Shown here piece after piece: positions 42,526 through 50,416 of a DNA stretch of 64,000 nt. Position numbers and translations under genes: made by a program. Every line of letters starts with the position of its first letter. The first letter of the stretch is position 1. Under the pieces are notes generated by a model that worked only from the letters and a program-made list of their open reading frames with translations, searched no databases and was not told the DNA's origin. Source of the stretch: Thermosphaera sp. (GTDB taxonomy: Archaea > Thermoproteota > Thermoprotei_A > Sulfolobales > Desulfurococcaceae); NCBI GenBank assembly GCA_038827615.1, contig JAWBNK010000001.1:744290-808289 (forward strand). Direction: 5' to 3'.

Positions 42526-43599
42526 ATGGGCAGAGGAAAGCCTTGGTTCGTTGGTCTTCTGCACGGACAAGACTGGCTGTCAAACTACGACCACGACATT
42601 GATACTGTATTTAAAGTGTTGAAAGCGGCCCGAGAGTTAAGAGAAATGTATCATAATGGGATAAGGAAGGTCACGTGGCTAGATGGAAAAATGCTGTATC
42701 TCATCTTCTACAACAAGAGCCTCAGGACGAGAAACAGTTTCCAGACGGGCATATATCAGCTTGGGGGACAGGCTACATACATCAGCCCCGATCAAGTATA
42801 TGCCCCCACCTTACCAGAAGACATGGTTCCATATCAAACCGAGGCTATTAGCGACGTAGCCAGAGTGTTAAGCAGGTATGGTGATGGCATCGCAATAAGG
42901 ATTTACGGAGATGCCGCAAAATGGATCATTGGAAGGGGTCACAAGATCATTAGAGAGTTTGCAAAATGGGCAGACATACCTGTTCTCAACATGGAAGATG
43001 ACGTCTGGCATCCATTCCAAGCCTTAGCAGATGCTCAGGCGGCTTTTGATGCACTTGGATGGCCGAAAGACCTTAGGGGAAAGAAGGTTGTTGTGAGCTA
43101 TGCATATAGTGGAGGGTTGAAGCCCCTCGCAGTTCCGCAGGACGTGGCCGCCATGTTTGCTATGATGGGTGCTGATGTATACGTTGCTCATCCGCCAGGT
43201 TTCGAGTTAATGGATGAGGCTATGAACAAGGCGAGGGAATATGCGAAACACTGGGGCTCTGAGTTCAAGATCGTCTACGACATGGATGAAGCCTTCGAGG
43301 GGGCAACCATAGTGTATCCAAAAGCGTGGAGCCCGAAGGGATTCTTCCCACCCTATAATAGCGTTGTCGACAAAGAAGGTGCTAAGGCTTATCAAGATAA
43401 GTTTAAGAATTGGATCGTGACAAGAGAGAGGCTTGAGAAGGCTGGTAAACCTTACTATATGCACTGTGGACCTGCTGATAGAGGGCAAGAAGTTACCGAC
43501 GAGGTATTGGACTCGTACGAGAAAAGTCTGTACTTCGAGGAAGCCGAAAACAGGCTCCATGTTCAGAAGGCCGTCATGGCAATGACTCTAGGAGAGTAA
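42526..43599 (+). CDS. Knotted carbamoyltransferase, YgeW-like
   Basis: 357-residue carbamoyltransferase distinct from argF. Seen: carbamoyl-phosphate loop KSLRTRNSF (Ser65-Arg69), WHPFQALADAQ (HPxQ motif), KPLAVPQDVAAMF and ATIVYPKAWSPKGFF, which match the YgeW/N-acetylornithine-type knotted subgroup, and HCGPADRGQEV in place of the HCLP motif. The acceptor substrate of YgeW proteins is not settled; in bacteria they sit in purine-catabolism operons with carbamate kinase and SsnA. Relatives of both occur downstream here. Own promoter. Confidence 0.8.
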   Translation: MGRGKPWFVGLLHGQDWLSNYDHDIDTVFKVLKAARELREMYHNGIRKVTWLDGKMLYLIFYNKSLRTRNSFQTGIYQLGGQATYISPDQVYAPTLPEDMVPYQTEAISDVARVLSRYGDGIAIRIYGDAAKWIIGRGHKIIREFAKWADIPVLNMEDDVWHPFQALADAQAAFDALGWPKDLRGKKVVVSYAYSGGLKPLAVPQDVAAMFAMMGADVYVAHPPGFELMDEAMNKAREYAKHWGSEFKIVYDMDEAFEGATIVYPKAWSPKGFFPPYNSVVDKEGAKAYQDKFKNWIVTRERLEKAGKPYYMHCGPADRGQEVTDEVLDSYEKSLYFEEAENRLHVQKAVMAMTLGE

Positions 43600-43673
43600 T
43601 CATTCATTCATAATTGTTTTTATATCTCTCTCCTTCTATTCTTTTCTAACATACTTCTAGTGCCTGATGGAAT

Positions 43674-44594
43674 ATGAAGATAAAGGGAATACATTATGGT
43701 TTAACACTATTGTACTCTTATCTACTGCCCTTCTTCGATATCCGAGAAACCCGTTACGGATTCGAATTCGTTAAACGCTACGGAAGCCTCCAAGGAATTA
43801 AATGCCAATTTAACGAAGATGACTTGCTCACCCAGTGCGAGATTCCTCCAAACATCGGGATAGGAACAGAAGTATTAAACGATGCTTTAGGCTTATCCAT
43901 GAAAAAACCTTTTGAACAATTGTGTTACATGGCTGATCTATATGAGGGCGAATGTTTAGCGAATCAACTCACGTTAATGTTTAATCCTTTAGATGCCAGA
44001 GATGTACTCAAAGTTATAGTTCTATCGCGTAATACTGATTACTATTATAATACAGTAAGATGGGCTAGACAGATATTTTCAGGAAAGATGTCACCAGAGG
44101 ATTTTTCTTCTTACATCCCCAAAACCCTTTCACATCTAAATGGAAACCTAGATCGATTATCGTTCAATGCCCCCACTCCAAGACTGATAAGAGGTTTACT
44201 GTCAATTGAAAGCATTGGCCCTAAGACTGTATCAGCCCTCCTTCTCCACGGGTATGGAAAAACCCGTTATGCCCCTATAGACAGGCACTTTGAGAAGATG
44301 CTTTCTAACCTTCTGAAAGTACGTCAGCCTTCGAAGAAGTATTGCATAGAGAATTCATTGCGGTGTGAAAAATGTTCAATAAGTGCAAAGTGCAAGTACG
44401 GAGTATCCTTAAAACTGTTCGGAGAGTACAATGGTATCATTCAATCTATGTCCTACGTTGCTGCTAGATTGAAAACCCGTAGGAGCCCTCTAGAAAAAAC
44501 GCTCGTTAAGAACGTGAAAGACTTTAAGTCTATAGACAGGTTCTTAAGCATTTTAGTGAAGAAATTTACTGGGAGAGCTTGTGAAAGAGATTGA
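43674..44594 (+). CDS. DNA glycosylase of the HhH-GPD superfamily with [4Fe-4S] cluster
   Basis: 306 residues. Residues 1-90 form an N-terminal domain (GIKCQFNEDDLLTQCEIPPN) like that of AlkA/OGG-type enzymes. Residues about 95-220 are the helical core with the hairpin and catalytic positions LSIESIGPKTVSALL (Lys184) and APIDRHFEKML (Asp203), both the lysine and aspartate of bifunctional EndoIII. A cluster loop follows: Cys224, 231, 234, 240, exactly C-x6-C-x2-C-x5-C. So base removal with possible AP-lyase activity is likely; the lesion is unknown. The radical SAM gene starts 7 bases downstream, same strand. Confidence 0.82.
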   Translation: MKIKGIHYGLTLLYSYLLPFFDIRETRYGFEFVKRYGSLQGIKCQFNEDDLLTQCEIPPNIGIGTEVLNDALGLSMKKPFEQLCYMADLYEGECLANQLTLMFNPLDARDVLKVIVLSRNTDYYYNTVRWARQIFSGKMSPEDFSSYIPKTLSHLNGNLDRLSFNAPTPRLIRGLLSIESIGPKTVSALLLHGYGKTRYAPIDRHFEKMLSNLLKVRQPSKKYCIENSLRCEKCSISAKCKYGVSLKLFGEYNGIIQSMSYVAARLKTRRSPLEKTLVKNVKDFKSIDRFLSILVKKFTGRACERD

Positions 44595-44600
44595 TACGAG

Positions 44601-45380
44601 ATGAGAGGTTACAATCCTATAGAGCTTTCAGACATTACCAGGAGGTTAGTGTGTAGAGTGACCCAAAAGGGCGAGGAGAGAAAATACTACAGGTTTAGGG
44701 GAGGACGGTGGTATGGCGGGGTCGCCACTGGTGACGTTGTTGGATGTAATCTCAGATGTAAATTCTGCTGGAGCTGGAGGTTCAGCCACTCCACAACAGG
44801 AGGCTGGTTTGAATCCATTGATTCAGCTTTCAGTAAACTCGTTCACATAGCGGAGAAAAACAATTATTACTACGTGAGACTGAGTGGCGGGGAACCTACA
44901 TTATCAAGGGAGCATTTATTGGGTCTCATGAAGCTCCTCTCAGAGACAAAATACACGTTCATTCTAGAGACAAACGGCATTCTATTGGGATATGACGAAT
45001 CTTACGCTGCCGAGATATCTAGATTTTCAAATATTGCTGTGAGAGTTAGTTTTAAAGGCACAACACCTGACGAGTTTCACCTTTTGACTGGCGCAAACCC
45101 TAGTTTTTTCTCCATTCAACTTAGAAGTCTCGAAAACTTAATTACAAGTGGTCTTCAGCCATGTAAAGACTTTTATCCAGCCGTGATGCTTAGTTTCTCG
45201 AAACCAGAGTCTTATGTCGAGTTTAAGGAGAGACTTAAAGCGCTGTCTCCGAGACTAGCTTCTTGCATAGACGAAGAGTATGTAATACTATATCCTCATG
45301 TAGTGGAGGTCTTAAGAAAATATAATTTAAAACCAACAATATCCTATTCCCCTGGCAGCGTCCCGGATTTCATGATTTAA
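44601..45380 (+). CDS. Radical SAM protein
   Basis: 259 residues with the [4Fe-4S]-SAM motif CNLRCKFC (Cys49, 53, 56), then RLSGGEPTLSREH, ETNGILLG and AVRVSFKGTTPDEFH, the usual (beta/alpha)6 barrel. No second cluster or C-terminal specificity domain is obvious, so the reaction is unknown. It is in an operon with a DNA glycosylase, and its product may act with it or be merely co-transcribed. Confidence 0.8.
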   Translation: MRGYNPIELSDITRRLVCRVTQKGEERKYYRFRGGRWYGGVATGDVVGCNLRCKFCWSWRFSHSTTGGWFESIDSAFSKLVHIAEKNNYYYVRLSGGEPTLSREHLLGLMKLLSETKYTFILETNGILLGYDESYAAEISRFSNIAVRVSFKGTTPDEFHLLTGANPSFFSIQLRSLENLITSGLQPCKDFYPAVMLSFSKPESYVEFKERLKALSPRLASCIDEEYVILYPHVVEVLRKYNLKPTISYSPGSVPDFMI

Positions 45381-45424
45381 AAGCCAATTGATAGATGAAT
45401 ATTGATATTAATGAAGGTGAAAAC

Positions 45425-46393
45425 GTGGACTCTGGAGAAGTCGTAGTTGTAGCATTAGGGGGGAACGCGTTCCAAAGCAAGAACGATAAGGGCACTGTAG
45501 AAGAGTACTGGAACAACGCGTATAAGTCAGCTGAATTCATAACTAGACTCATTGAGGAAGGCTACAGAGTAGTGGTGACTCATGGAAATGGTCCACAAGT
45601 AGGGATCATCGCGGAATGGATGATGGCTGGTTTAAAGGAAAAGAATCTGCCTCCAATGAGCTTGGACATAGCAGGCGCTATGTCGCAAGGATGGCTAGGC
45701 TACTTGTTACAGCAAGCCCTTTACAATAAATTATTGGATAGGAAGCTTCTCGGTGAGAAAATTAAAGGAGTAGTAACAGTTGTCACGCAGACACTCGTGG
45801 ACCGGAACGACCCAGCCTTCAAGGACCCCACTAAGTATATCGGACCATGGTATGAAAAAGATGAGGTCGAGAAGCTTGCAAAAGAGTTTGGTTGGACCTT
45901 TAAACCGGATCCCAGGGGAGGTTATAGAAGAGTAGTGCCCTCTCCTGACCCAGTGAGACAGATAGAAATCGATGCCATCAAAACACTGGTGTCTAACGGA
46001 TTCATCGTCATTGCTGACGGTGGCGGTGGAATTCCAGTGTATGTTGAAGAGGACGGTAAGCTCAAAGGGATTGAGGCAGTCATAGATAAAGACCTTGGAG
46101 CAGAAAGAATGGCGGCCGCAGTGGGTGCCGACGTATTATTAATTTTGACTGATGTTGAAAAAGTATACCTCAACCACGGAAAACCCGATGCTAAACCCAT
46201 TGATGAGATGACCGCCAGCGAAGCCTTAAAATATTATAAAGAGGGACATTTCAAACCTGGAAGCATGGGACCAAAAGTCCTAGCCGGAATAAGGTTCGTT
46301 CAAAACGGTGGAAAATTGGCAATCATTGCTCACTTAAGCCAGGCTTACGAGGCAATAAAAGGGAAGGCGGGCACAAGGATCCTCCCAGGATAA
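45425..46393 (+). CDS. arcC: Carbamate kinase
   Basis: Interconverts carbamoyl phosphate plus ADP with carbamate plus ATP. Seen: VVVALGGNAFQ, VVTHGNGPQVG, DIAGAMSQGWLGYLLQQAL, DKDLGAERMAAAVGADVLLILTDV, and GSMGPKVLAGIRF. 322 residues from GTG 45425, which has GAAGGTG upstream and gives the family N-terminus; ATG 45395 is an alternative that adds ten residues. It follows the radical SAM gene by 44 bases. With the two carbamoyltransferases it may make ATP from carbamoyl phosphate or supply it. Confidence 0.93.
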   Translation: MDSGEVVVVALGGNAFQSKNDKGTVEEYWNNAYKSAEFITRLIEEGYRVVVTHGNGPQVGIIAEWMMAGLKEKNLPPMSLDIAGAMSQGWLGYLLQQALYNKLLDRKLLGEKIKGVVTVVTQTLVDRNDPAFKDPTKYIGPWYEKDEVEKLAKEFGWTFKPDPRGGYRRVVPSPDPVRQIEIDAIKTLVSNGFIVIADGGGGIPVYVEEDGKLKGIEAVIDKDLGAERMAAAVGADVLLILTDVEKVYLNHGKPDAKPIDEMTASEALKYYKEGHFKPGSMGPKVLAGIRFVQNGGKLAIIAHLSQAYEAIKGKAGTRILPG

Positions 46394-46411
46394 GACTGTT
46401 TTATACAACTT

Positions 46412-46422
46412 GCTTTTTTCTT
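46412..46422 (+). terminator. T-run after carbamate kinase
   Basis: A T6 tract (46414-46419) 20 bases after the stop, followed by AT-rich sequence containing the likely promoter of the next gene. Confidence 0.4.
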
Positions 46423-46480
46423 TATAACTCTTCTATTATATCTCATAATGTTTAGTAATTAATGATAAGAGTGATAACGA

Positions 46481-47365
46481 ATGCTCGACATAAACCGTAT
46501 TTTAAAACTAAAAGGCTTTTTCTTCCTCGTCATGACGACCATCTTGTGGGGTACGTCTTTTTCTTTCATTAAACTATCTGTTGAGGAAATCTCGGGTTTC
46601 TCATATACGTTTTACCGCGGTATGTTTTCTCTCCTATTTCTGACACCACTGGTCACTAGAAAACTGCGAAAACGAGAATTCCATTTTAAAAGTTTGATAA
46701 ATGGAATGTATACCGGAGTCGCTTATACCTCAGGACTTATGCTTCAGGGATTGGGGACCGCATACGTATCTCCCTCGACAAGTGCGTTCATCACTGGGCT
46801 TAATACGCTACATGTTCATCTCTATTCCGGAATTATAGCTAGAAAATATGGACTTACCCATGCTATCTCATTAGCCCTAGCCCTCTCTGGTCTTTACATT
46901 TTAACCAAGCCCCAGGACAGTGGAGGTTGGGGCGAGTTCCTCGTTTTCATAGGATCCATTGCATGGGCAGCTCAGATCATCCTAGTGAGCAAGTACAGCA
47001 GCGCTTCAATGCTCGAGTATCTTTATGGAATGTTCACTCCAACTCTCCTAATAGGTCCATACGTCCTGTTTTTTGAAAGAGGCGGGAGCCTGTCACCCTC
47101 CACGATGATCTACTTAGCTTACCTGGCGGCGGCGTGTTCTCTTGGAGCCACCTATTTCCAGGTCAAAGGACAGAAGTATGTCTCAGCTAGCTCTGCTGCA
47201 ATAGTATTCTTGCTAGAACCGGTGTTTGCACTCTTATTCTCACTCCTCCTCGGCCTCGAAGCTCTAGCGTTGTACAAAGTGATTGGGGGGAGTCTCATAG
47301 TTCTTGCAACGTACGTGACCACCGTCGGCGAGATCAAAAGCGTGAATAAGACACAGCAGACTTAA
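46481..47365 (+). CDS. DMT-superfamily (EamA) transporter
   Basis: 294 residues with ten predicted membrane helices in two five-helix EamA repeats (WGTSFSFIKLSVEEISGF in the first; ASSAAIVFLLEPVFALLFSL in the second). Family members export or import amino acids, nucleobases and other metabolites. It lies just before the SsnA-like amidohydrolase, 36 bases apart on the same strand, and could supply its substrate. Confidence 0.82.
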   Translation: MLDINRILKLKGFFFLVMTTILWGTSFSFIKLSVEEISGFSYTFYRGMFSLLFLTPLVTRKLRKREFHFKSLINGMYTGVAYTSGLMLQGLGTAYVSPSTSAFITGLNTLHVHLYSGIIARKYGLTHAISLALALSGLYILTKPQDSGGWGEFLVFIGSIAWAAQIILVSKYSSASMLEYLYGMFTPTLLIGPYVLFFERGGSLSPSTMIYLAYLAAACSLGATYFQVKGQKYVSASSAAIVFLLEPVFALLFSLLLGLEALALYKVIGGSLIVLATYVTTVGEIKSVNKTQQT

Positions 47366-47401
47366 AAACGCAGTGTCGGAAAAATATACAAGGTGGGATG
47401 A

Positions 47402-48790
47402 TTGCGGGAAAAAGTCGATATTCTAATATCCAATGGATTGATAGTTACAATGGATAAGGAGAGAAGAATCATTGATAATGGATTCATAGCAATTAGCGGT
47501 GGACGAATCCTCGACATTGGGATTGGGGATGGACAAAACAAGTATATTGCCGAAGAACATATTGATGCCAAAAAACACGTAGTTATGCCTGGCCTTATGT
47601 GCGCTCACACACACTTCTATGGCCTGTTATTGACCGGTAGTCCATGGTTTTCCAGGATCGATCCGCCGACGGACTTTCAGCAAAATCTTCAAAGAATATG
47701 GTGGGCGCTTGACGTTCTACTCTCTCATGAGGATGCGTACGCTTCTGCTCTTATGGGGGCTATCGAGTTCGTGAAAACCGGGGTTACATTTTTCTTCGAC
47801 AACATAAGTGCCCCTAACTCGATACACGGAGTTCTCGACTATATCGAGAAGGCCGTTAATGAAGTCGGAATACGTGGATACCTTAGTTTCGAGGCAACAC
47901 AGAGACGAAAAATTGAAGAAGGCATTGAAGGTCTGAAAGAAAACGAGAGGTTTATTTTAAAGAATAACCTTGACGAGTCCAAAAAAGTAAAAGGAGCGAT
48001 TTACCTCCACGCGAGTTTCACGGTATCAAACGACTTGTTCATTAAAGCGAGAGAGATGGCTGATAAGTATAACGCTCTTCTAGCAATACACGCCGAGGAA
48101 GGGTTGGTTGATGTCTACCATAATATTGAGAGATACGGTTTGCGCCCCATTGAAAGAATGTATAAACTGGGGTTCTTAAAGGACGATGTCATCCTTGTTC
48201 ACGCTGTAAACACGACTGAAGACGAGCTGGATCTTGTCAAAAAAACTGGGGCACATGTTGCTCACAACCCGTTAAGCAATATGTTGAATGCCGTGGGAGT
48301 TGCGAAAATACCTGAGATGATCGAGAGAGGCATCAACGTAGGAATCGGGAACGATGGTTACATATTTGACCAATTCGAAAATATTCGTGCGACTTACCTA
48401 TTACATAAGCTTTGGAAGAGAGACCCGAGAATAATGTCGCCTATGCAGGTCATTGAAATGGCTACTGTAAACGTCGCGAGGATGTTCAGGGTCGACTCCC
48501 AACTGGGGAGTCTGGAGAAGGGTAAAAAAGCTGATATTGTATTAATAAAGCCCGAGCTACCCTCAACTCCCGTCAACTCTCAAACCGTCTATGGACACTT
48601 GGTAAACTCCGTCAATAGTAGAGATGTCAAAAGCGTTATCGTCGACGGAAAATTGGTCATGAAAAACCGCGTCCTTCTAAATGTTGATGAAGAAAAGTCA
48701 ATAGAGTATGTTCACAAGGTTGTTGAGAGGCTTTGGGATAGACTCTTGGAAAAAGGAGAGTACCAGATAGACGTTTTGGAAGCGATATGA
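47402..48790 (+). CDS. SsnA-like amidohydrolase/deaminase
   Basis: 462-residue metal-dependent hydrolase of the TRZ/ATZ-SsnA branch of the amidohydrolase superfamily, which includes guanine, cytosine and s-triazine deaminases. Seen metal site: CAHTHFYG (HxH), LLAIHAEEG, LVHAVNTTEDE and the Asp in GIGNDGYIFDQFEN, which is close to SsnA. The N-terminal and C-terminal beta domains (LIVTMDKE; LVNSVNSRDVKSVIVDGKLV) are also present. TTG start with AGGTGGG at proper spacing. In bacteria ssnA is part of the xanthine/purine degradation operons that hold ygeW. Substrate unknown. Confidence 0.82.
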   Translation: MREKVDILISNGLIVTMDKERRIIDNGFIAISGGRILDIGIGDGQNKYIAEEHIDAKKHVVMPGLMCAHTHFYGLLLTGSPWFSRIDPPTDFQQNLQRIWWALDVLLSHEDAYASALMGAIEFVKTGVTFFFDNISAPNSIHGVLDYIEKAVNEVGIRGYLSFEATQRRKIEEGIEGLKENERFILKNNLDESKKVKGAIYLHASFTVSNDLFIKAREMADKYNALLAIHAEEGLVDVYHNIERYGLRPIERMYKLGFLKDDVILVHAVNTTEDELDLVKKTGAHVAHNPLSNMLNAVGVAKIPEMIERGINVGIGNDGYIFDQFENIRATYLLHKLWKRDPRIMSPMQVIEMATVNVARMFRVDSQLGSLEKGKKADIVLIKPELPSTPVNSQTVYGHLVNSVNSRDVKSVIVDGKLVMKNRVLLNVDEEKSIEYVHKVVERLWDRLLEKGEYQIDVLEAI

Positions 48791-48872
48791 GGGCTTAGTA
48801 TAGTAGTTTCCAGTGTCTTAAATTTCCACAAGATGTTAAAGTGTTCAATATTCTTTTATTTTTTAAAAAGTA

Positions 48873-48918
48873 AAGTTATAAAAGCTTTCACAGTCTAAAT
48901 ATTCATGTGGTGAAAACC
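48873..48918 (+). promoter_or_regulatory. Promoter and RBS of cren7
   Basis: BRE-like AAAG followed by the TATA box TTATAAAA (48876-48883), the best match in this window, predicts a start near 48906. GGTGA (48909-48913) is 5 bases before ATG 48919. This fits an abundant chromatin protein. Confidence 0.6.
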
Positions 48919-49104
48919 ATGCCTTGCGATAAGCCAGTAAAGGTTAAGACTGCAAGCGGGAAAGAGTTAGAGTTAATCCCAAAAAAAGTTTGGCAACTCA
49001 ACCCGCGCGGCAAAAAAGGAGTAAAGGTCGGCTTGTTCCAGGACCCTGAAACTGGGGCTTTCTTCAGAGCTAAAGTTCCTGAGGACTATCCATTATGTGG
49101 TTAA
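48919..49104 (+). CDS. cren7: Chromatin protein Cren7
   Basis: 61-residue crenarchaeal DNA-bending chromatin protein, an SH3-like barrel. Seen: KPVKVKTASGKELELIPKKVW, GKKGVKVGLFQDPETG and the C-terminal DYPL, nearly identical in layout to Sulfolobus Cren7. Two cysteines (residues 3 and 60) at the ends are unlike the Sulfolobus protein and might pair. ATG 48919 is favoured by the RBS; GTG 48907 would add four residues. Marker for Thermoproteota (Crenarchaeota). Confidence 0.95.
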   Translation: MPCDKPVKVKTASGKELELIPKKVWQLNPRGKKGVKVGLFQDPETGAFFRAKVPEDYPLCG

Positions 49105-49120
49105 CTTTTTTGGGTTTTTG
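49105..49120 (+). terminator. T-run terminator after cren7
   Basis: T6 (49106-49111) and T5 (49115-49119) tracts directly after the cren7 stop. Confidence 0.5.
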
Positions 49121-49204
49121 ACTCAATTACACACTTTCTTCTGGTTTCATAAAAGTTTTTTTACTTTTAAGATAAGGATTATCACAGCATAGTGGGTGAA
49201 ATGT

Positions 49205-50416
49205 GTGGTTGATCTATCAGTAGAAATAGCTGGCTTGAAAATGAAGAATCCTATTATGAATGCTGCCTGCCCAATATCCCGCGACGCGGAAACAATGAAA
49301 CTACTGATTGACAACGGGGTCGGAGGAGTTGTTGCTAAAACAATTAGCGTTAAACCAGCTATTGTTCCAAGGCCGAGTATGGGCGTTGTAGACAGAGGGC
49401 TCGGCCGATTCCACATGCTCAAACCCGTTAAGCCTGGTGAAACAAGGGTTACTCCTGTCGACTCTGGAAACTACAGATTCATATACGCTCTTCTCAACGC
49501 TGAATTATGGAGTGACATCCCCGCCGAACACTACCTGGAGCGTGAATACCCTATAGTGAAGAACTATTGCAAAGACCATGGGGTGGCTTTCTTCGTAAGC
49601 ATCGGTTATAAGCCTGAAGAATTGTCCCTGCTTGGACCTAAGGTTGAGAAGGCAGGAGCTGAGGCAATAGAGTTCTCGACACATTACATAGGCAAAGACT
49701 ATCGACCAGTTATCGAAGCAGCTAAAGCCCTCAGAGAGTCGGTTTCGATCCCAATATTTGCAAAATTAAGCCCCTTCACGCCTAACATTCCTGATTTAGT
49801 CAAAGAACTCGAGGCTGTAAAGGTCGATGGAATAGTGGCTACTAATACTATAGGTCCAGCCTTGAGTATCGATGTAGAGACCGGCCTGCCGATCGTCGGC
49901 GGACCACTAGGATACGGGTGGATGAGTGGTCCGGCTTTAAAACCTCTATCGCTCGCAGTAGTAGCCGAAGTGGCGAGAAATACGAAACTCCCGGTGATAG
50001 GTGTCGGAGGAATATCGAGAGGGGTCGATGTTATAGAGTACTTCATGGCGGGTGCCTCGGCTGTACAAATTTGCACTGCCGCACTAGTAGAAGGGTTCAG
50101 CGTTTTTCAACGAATTATTAGCGAAACAAAATCGTGGCTTGAGAAGCATGGGTACTCAAGTATTCTAGATGTGAAGGGTTTAGCACTTAAATATTTAAAA
50201 CCTGAGCCGAGAAGGGTTTGGGCGAAATCACCTGTTGTTGAGGAGAAAAAGTGCATTGGCTGCGGATTCTGTGAGCAAGTATGCGACTACGACGCAGTTC
50301 ATATAGAAGAATCGGAGAAAGGGAGGAGGGTTGCGGTTGTAAATGGAGCAAAATGCTACGGGTGTGGATTGTGCACCACAGTATGTCCTACTAGGGCGAT
50401 CCACTTCATTGAATAA
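49205..50416 (+). CDS. Dihydroorotate/dihydropyrimidine dehydrogenase-like flavoprotein with two [4Fe-4S] (PreA-type)
   Basis: 403 residues. An FMN TIM barrel (NPIMNAACPISRDAETM; VVAKTIS; KLSPFTPNI; VGGISRGVDVIEYFMAGASA) is followed by a ferredoxin domain with CIGCGFCEQVC and CYGCGLCTTVCP. This is the layout of PreA, the pyrimidine-reducing half of bacterial NAD-dependent dihydropyrimidine dehydrogenase. The PreT partner is not in the window, and ferredoxin could be the electron partner instead. Start GTG 49205 with GGGTGA upstream; GTG 49196 is possible. Role in pyrimidine reduction or in another cyclic-amide route is inference. Confidence 0.83.
   Translation: MVDLSVEIAGLKMKNPIMNAACPISRDAETMKLLIDNGVGGVVAKTISVKPAIVPRPSMGVVDRGLGRFHMLKPVKPGETRVTPVDSGNYRFIYALLNAELWSDIPAEHYLEREYPIVKNYCKDHGVAFFVSIGYKPEELSLLGPKVEKAGAEAIEFSTHYIGKDYRPVIEAAKALRESVSIPIFAKLSPFTPNIPDLVKELEAVKVDGIVATNTIGPALSIDVETGLPIVGGPLGYGWMSGPALKPLSLAVVAEVARNTKLPVIGVGGISRGVDVIEYFMAGASAVQICTAALVEGFSVFQRIISETKSWLEKHGYSSILDVKGLALKYLKPEPRRVWAKSPVVEEKKCIGCGFCEQVCDYDAVHIEESEKGRRVAVVNGAKCYGCGLCTTVCPTRAIHFIE

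Follow-up and report, generated by a model that had tools for sequence, protein, structure and literature searches.

The locus raises the question of why a gene for a DNA glycosylase and a gene for a radical SAM enzyme should stand side by side in an archaeal genome. In the 64,000-nucleotide stretch of DNA analysed (the window), the first gene (306 aa, 43674-44594) and the second (259 aa, 44601-45380) lie on the plus strand, as do all residues discussed below. Six bases separate the glycosylase stop from the radical SAM start, and the second ATG thus starts on the seventh, which is the sense in which an earlier, sequence-only reading had placed it seven bases later. A separate promoter is unlikely in so short a gap, and a TATA-like stretch, recognised by eye only, occurs about 50 bases 5' of the glycosylase start (43616-43625). 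The host genome comprises 1.36 Mb and is rated 99.98% complete. As set out below, the gene pair is real and no local accident, and the link between the two enzymes points to an undescribed two-enzyme handling of a DNA lesion or modification. No description of the archaeal pair was found in the literature by title or abstract start among the matches listed, nor was any biochemistry of either family found. The link is strong, occurs widely and can be put to direct tests, and both proteins are easy to assay in purified form.

Searched as a single sequence, the glycosylase gives weak matches only, to HHH_5 in Pfam (E 0.01) and to ogg (0.049) and mutY (0.16) in NCBIfam. The profile of its 62 members matches solved OGG1/AlkA-type and EndoIII chains (4ejy, E 1.2e-6), and along residues 1-269 the AlphaFold2 model (mean pLDDT 95.9) superposes on OGG1 structures (4ejy_A, Z 18.7, rmsd 3.0, 233 aligned), with the OGG1 A-domain present. 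The HhH-GPD identity proposed from the letters alone is thus borne out by both profile and model, as is the additional AlkA/OGG-like N-terminal domain. Lys184 (44223..44225; K in 62/62 members) is taken to be the catalytic Lys of the HhH motif, a role assigned from known HhH-GPD lyases, and is accompanied by the catalytic Asp203 (44280..44282; D in 62/62). In the last OGG1-type helix, Gln257 and Tyr261 (44442..44456; Q in 62/62, residue 261 Y in 60 and F in 2) align with the OGG1 positions Gln315 and Phe319. According to PMC3397491, the Gln and Phe of this last helix hold the flipped 8-oxoguanine in OGG1.

A four-Cys loop (C224-C231-C234-C240, 44343..44393; Cys in 62, 61, 62 and 62 of 62) is located 17-25 residues past Asp203 and 15-16 residues ahead of Gln257, preceding the last OGG1 helix in 62/62 members. 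Judged from its sequence, it probably holds a [4Fe-4S] cluster. The 6-2-5 Cys spacing of EndoIII occurs in 19 of the 62 members, a 4-2-5 spacing in 23, and the remainder differ; zinc is kept as a possible alternative because the EndoIII spacing is found in only these 19. The family has, in short, an OGG1 body and an EndoIII-like Cys loop at another place. An HhH-GPD core and a four-Cys loop are also features of the Endonuclease III, MutY and MIG FeS glycosylases, whereas EndoIII is devoid of the OGG1 N-terminal domain. The Nth-like protein L261 differs from the pair's glycosylase in having its Cys loop close to the C-terminus, behind an additional segment that does not align; the pair's enzyme is set apart from Endonuclease III by a loop position ahead of the Gln257 helix in 62/62 members and by the presence of the OGG1 A-domain.

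The likeness to OGG1 (human OGG1, CacOGG1 and MBOgg1) covers the fold over residues 1-269, the catalytic Lys and Asp, the last-helix Gln and the aromatic residue at the Phe319 place. Gly42 is described as strictly conserved across OGG1 in PMC3397491, whereas residues 15-17 of the glycosylase are Ser (59/62), Phe/Tyr (58/62) and Leu/Thr/Val and others; a local profile alignment pairs Ser15 with OGG1 Gly42 in an uncertain register, gaps fall here in the global alignment, and one unrelated ORF had been included by mistake among the OGG1 sequences aligned. The OGG1-defining Gly appears to be missing from the family in these alignments, and the glycosylase is not filed as OGG1 for this reason; the additional four-Cys loop is a further difference.

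Other assignments were likewise compared. PF09171, the mark of AGOG, is absent among the Pfam matches of the glycosylase up to E 1, as are UDG and DUF4130. Sis-HhH-GPD of Saccharolobus islandicus is, like the present protein, a Thermoproteota HhH-GPD protein with a Cys loop, and PMC11754123 describes it as a bifunctional glycosylase which groups with MpgII, MagIII and Mja-UDG; it carries Glu134 and Ser152 where the pair's family has invariant Lys and Asp (PMC11754123). A catalytic Lys and no Glu in 62/62 members place the pair's glycosylase outside the Sis-HhH-GPD/MpgII/MagIII group, and the word "radical" does not occur in the text of PMC11754123. The host genome also has AGOG, together with one Nth-like and one MutY-like HhH-GPD protein (both below NCBIfam cut-offs), so the pair's glycosylase is at least the fourth enzyme of the superfamily there. 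A role as AGOG stand-in is unlikely, as AGOG occurs in the host genome and in 53 of the 85 curated glycosylase genomes. Five OGG1-like proteins with a CGQ motif and no Cys loop (L254, L255, L256, L257 and L258) come from genomes that are without the pair's glycosylase and outside the AGOG list, and these look like ordinary OGG1 replacing AGOG.

The second gene encodes a radical SAM protein, as had been read from the letters: PF04055 is matched at E 1.7e-15 (58 bits against a cut-off of 29.5), and the CxxxCxxC motif (C49, C53 and C56; 44745..44768) is invariant in 84/84 members. The family also has a signature RFRxx[RK]WYGG (residues 31-40, 44691..44720), in which R31, F32, R33, W37, Y38, G39 and G40 are invariant in 84/84 and R36 varies. 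The charged residues R93, H105, R148, K152 and E226 are among those invariant in the 84 members, whose mean column identity is 55%. No sequence sign of DNA binding was seen in the protein, and charge is uninformative as a clue to its function, its median pI of 9.0 being near the 8.7 of neighbouring genes.

The model of the radical SAM protein (pLDDT 96.3) has its best fold match in PFL-activating enzyme (PFL-AE; 3cb8_A, Z 19.4, rmsd 2.9, 213 aligned), followed by QueE (Z 16.6), viperin-like enzymes (Z 15.8) and spore photoproduct lyase (SPL; 4k9r, Z 13.3, rmsd 3.6, 228 aligned). A radical SAM core is common to this protein and to PFL-AE, NrdG2, QueE, MoaA and viperin, yet the best of 62 NCBIfam families reaches 49.7 bits, and the cut-offs among the 25 best of the 62 are at least 131 bits; SPL is not among these 25. 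By these sequence comparisons, the protein belongs to no named family, whether PFL-AE, NrdG2, QueE, MoaA, viperin or SPL. A function as activase of pyruvate formate-lyase or ribonucleotide reductase was rejected, since the PF01228 glycyl-radical domain has no match in the host genome and its NrdD is followed by its own NrdG2. In a tree of 139 distinct sequences, the main clade, which holds the glycosylase-adjacent proteins, is apart from 16 paralogues, and the glycosylase is absent from the fetched stretch of all 16 (L214-L223 and L225-L230). The neighbours of the paralogue clade vary by lineage and include metallo-beta-lactamase, ARMT1-like and DUF362 genes.

Whether the arrangement in the window is a peculiarity of one genome was answered by the distribution of both families in 299 Thermoproteota genomes. 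At thresholds of E <= 1e-20 for the radical SAM protein and E <= 1e-8 for the glycosylase, the former was found in 110 genomes, the latter in 92 and both in 88, against 34 expected; Fisher p-values for this co-occurrence overstate significance because the genomes are related, and some of the glycosylase matches counted are fragments. The two genes are within 6 kb of each other in 65 of the 88 genomes, where about 0.7 would be expected if both places in a 1.6-Mb genome were drawn at random, and 53 of the 65 close pairs are no more than 300 bases apart, with touching or overlapping genes in several lineages. The conservation across Thermoproteota on which the sequence-only reading had staked its proposal is therefore found. 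Counted from the family codes, the 65 pairs span 18 families and occur in four orientations (glycosylase then radical SAM gene 26, the reverse order 19, convergent 7, divergent 13), for which reason one inherited ancestral operon was rejected as the whole explanation. The remaining 23 of the 88 have the two genes on separate contigs or at distances above 6 kb.

Hand curation changed these counts to 102 genomes with the radical SAM gene, 85 with the glycosylase and 84 with both, by dropping seven weak glycosylase matches (G037, G065, G072, G107, G286, G309 and G325) and eight genomes taken as paralogue-only (G042, G043 and G052 by the tree; G065, G072, G093, G107 and G304 by score alone). An initial set of 61 genomes had the glycosylase in 40 of them, and its radical SAM count of 60 takes in unrelated radical SAM proteins. 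Among 80 named radical SAM loci, from Desulfurococcales, Ignisphaera, Thermofilum, Thermoproteus, Bathyarchaeota, Brockarchaeota, Geocrenenecus, Culexarchaeum and others, the fetched stretch contains the glycosylase in 43 (31 with the glycosylase gene first, 6 convergent, 5 with the radical SAM gene first and 1 divergent) and is without it in 37, some stretches being short.

The dependence between the two genes runs one way. A glycosylase without the radical SAM gene was found in four genomes before curation (G157, G286, G309 and G325, three of them weak matches) and in 1 of 85 after it, while the radical SAM gene stands without the glycosylase in 22 genomes, or 18 of 102 after curation, several of which are complete. 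A more diverse glycosylase profile run on 28 genomes gave at most 43 bits in the 22 uncurated radical-SAM-only genomes. Missed glycosylases were rejected as an explanation, as the matches inspected among eight fetched ones are Nth-like or Cys-free OGG1-like. Stages of loss can be seen: within one genus G011 has both genes, G029 the radical SAM gene only and G021 neither, and G015 has an intact radical SAM gene with glycosylase fragments only (G015:C1:540373-540748). At another locus, an intact radical SAM gene has nearby a glycosylase gene broken into two ORFs (L120:1292-2235). This one-way dependence fits a glycosylase that handles what the radical SAM reaction makes or leaves behind, and is an argument against a dedicated maturase. 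With median identities of 53% versus 28%, the radical SAM protein is also much better conserved than the glycosylase, so its main task may be another one. A distance correlation of both proteins (Spearman 0.42, 56 loci), obtained without a control, was not used as evidence.

The reading we favour, at a little short of an even chance, is that the two genes together make up a module for processing DNA bases: the radical SAM enzyme would change a base, and the product would be excised by the glycosylase. It starts from the observed glycosylase fold and catalytic residues, the radical SAM motif, the linkage in four orientations and the one-way dependence, and from these we infer that both enzymes act on one DNA substrate, the radical SAM enzyme first. 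The 5'-deoxyadenosyl radical would alter a damaged or modified DNA base or its sugar, the OGG1-fold glycosylase would then flip out the product of this step and cut its glycosidic bond via Lys184 and Asp203, and would probably nick the strand after excision. The retained equivalent of OGG1 Gln315 and the aromatic residue at the Phe319 place suggest as the probable substrate a purine whose Watson-Crick face is intact. It would not simply be 8-oxoguanine, because the Gly that reads N7-H seems to be missing and AGOG is already in the genome. If both enzymes do act on one DNA base, the radical step would make a lesion or mark ready for the glycosylase. An action of the radical SAM enzyme on a DNA lesion, which the sequence-only reading had considered on a par with RNA or cofactor modification, is the likeliest reading, and RNA, nucleotides, cofactors or proteins are also possible substrates. 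Against the module count a radical SAM sequence with no sign of DNA binding, the nearest radical SAM fold, that of a protein-modifying activase (PFL-AE), the genes apart in 23 of 88 genomes and the glycosylase outside the stretch at 37 of 80 loci, and the higher conservation of the radical SAM protein.

A more specific form of this proposal, which might be called radical base excision repair, has the radical SAM enzyme unlock a glycosylase-resistant lesion that the OGG1-fold glycosylase then excises; so narrowly defined, it is quite unlikely to be right. MoaA is a GTP 3',8-cyclase, in which radical SAM chemistry joins the C8 of a purine to a sugar carbon. The putative lesion that fits best is 5',8-cyclopurine, a base bound twice to its sugar, which in humans is repaired by nucleotide excision repair (NER) and which seven purified BER proteins, human OGG1 included, neither bind nor excise, according to PMC6628319. 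Hyperthermophilic archaea have no UvrABC and no conventional NER, as stated in PMC4471258. A shared action of both enzymes on one DNA base, if true, would bear directly on how such archaea treat glycosylase-resistant lesions.

In the best surviving alternative, RNA, a cofactor or a nucleotide is the substrate of the radical SAM enzyme, and the glycosylase clears the resulting DNA lesions, caused by stray radical damage or by a misincorporated modified purine. It is consistent with the radical SAM gene standing alone in 22 genomes (18 curated) and being the more conserved of the two, with the presence among the nearest folds of QueE and viperin, whose substrates are small and nucleotide-like, and with the position of the pair among purine-degradation-like genes in the lineage of the window. 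What weighs on the other side is the company the pair keeps: no known RNA-modification or cofactor gene recurs beside it among the neighbours identified, and other neighbour clusters are common to at most 17 loci. We consider this alternative unlikely, though it retains real weight.

A maturase role, in which the glycosylase would be modified at one of its residues in the way PFL-activating enzyme modifies its partner, would account for PFL-AE as the best fold match (3cb8_A) and for a glycosylase that hardly ever occurs without the radical SAM gene. The radical SAM gene is kept without its supposed client in the 22 genomes mentioned (18 curated), several of them complete, and casual inspection of the glycosylase alignment revealed no conserved Gly-radical-like or peptide substrate motif, which renders a maturase improbable. 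The linkage might also reflect nothing beyond shared regulation or lifestyle in anaerobic, FeS-rich thermophiles, with no common substrate. The 23 genomes with separated genes agree with this, and the unlinked AGOG co-occurs with the pair's glycosylase as well (53/85 versus 25 expected), indicating that shared lifestyle or ancestry alone yields a sizeable co-occurrence; adjacency in four orientations, its spread over 18 families and the near-strict dependence nevertheless make a link of this kind very improbable. Least probable of all, and hardly to be expected, is the removal of a DNA mark, in which the radical SAM enzyme would alter a methylated or otherwise modified base for excision as an oxygen-independent analogue of TET and TDG: the two-step logic fits and genomes with COX1 have the pair less often (13 with the glycosylase versus 33.5 expected), but that correlation is confounded by phylogeny (large clades have COX1 and no pair, and COX1 genomes of the families f8, f18 and f19 do carry it), no recurring DNA methyltransferase neighbour was noticed among the neighbours identified, and the OGG1-like Gln/aromatic pocket fits a purine better than 5-methylcytosine.

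For the favoured processing of one DNA base by both enzymes, a loose and predicted precedent is offered by bacteria, in the association of SplB-like proteins, uracil-DNA glycosylases and DUF4130 which we take to be TIGR03914-TIGR03916; the logic is common and the glycosylase family is different. According to PMC3765255, bacterial SplB-like radical SAM photolyases are associated with uracil-DNA glycosylases and DUF4130, and there too a radical SAM gene adjoins DNA glycosylase genes with a predicted function in base modification or repair. The bacterial system combines a UDG-superfamily glycosylase with an SplB-like protein, whereas the archaeal pair consists of an OGG1-fold HhH-GPD protein and a small protein with its best fold match in PFL-AE; as SPL folds match this protein at Z 13, some likeness to SplB is possible. 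Spore photoproduct lyase likewise is a radical SAM enzyme acting on DNA damage, by direct reversal and with no glycosylase, and its fold match to the present protein (Z 13.3) is weaker than that of PFL-AE or QueE. Regardless of mechanism, the pair comprises a glycosylase family whose FeS-type loop sits elsewhere in the OGG1 fold, together with a Thermoproteota family of radical SAM proteins that is highly conserved and uncharacterised.

The surroundings of the pair differ between lineages. In the window, its neighbours are a carbamoyltransferase of the N-acetylornithine/YgeW-like type on one side and a carbamate kinase on the other; an aminohydrolase resembling SsnA and a dehydrogenase resembling PreA lie further along, and of these four only the carbamate kinase passes its cut-off. 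Together, the genes at 42526-50416 around the pair resemble an anaerobic purine/urate degradation cluster, and ygeW and ssnA are named in a paper on a reductive urate pathway (PMC12507026). The SsnA-like protein also matches models of 5'-deoxyadenosine deaminase and 8-oxoguanine deaminase, with scores under their cut-offs. Of the 80 named loci, 13 have the carbamate kinase cluster and 9 that of the carbamoyltransferase, so these surroundings are particular to a lineage whereas the pair itself is not, and no constant third partner was found among the named loci.

A second radical SAM protein accompanies 9 of the 80 loci (L160:1399-2268, L178:3994-4911, L136, L146, L150, L129, L134, L163 and L165); it is nearest the PA0069 and Rv2578c families and weakly resembles spore photoproduct lyase. 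In L160 it is 63 bases from the radical SAM gene, and in L220 it adjoins a paralogue (L220:4393-5514). A DUF488 gene is directly 3' of the radical SAM gene in two stretches that hold no glycosylase (L131:3306-3848 and L132:3870-4403), and L146 has a third copy close to the pair.

Mobile elements were also searched. The radical SAM protein gave generic viperin-like matches only among known defence proteins and short generic matches only among phages, and the glycosylase had no match among plasmids. A plasmid relative of the radical SAM protein is encoded by one Halobacterium gene between QueD- and QueC-type genes. Viral contigs contributed three distant radical SAM matches, one of which (L251:4289-5738, 31% over residues 29-164) adjoins an ORF that by eye resembles an ASCH domain.
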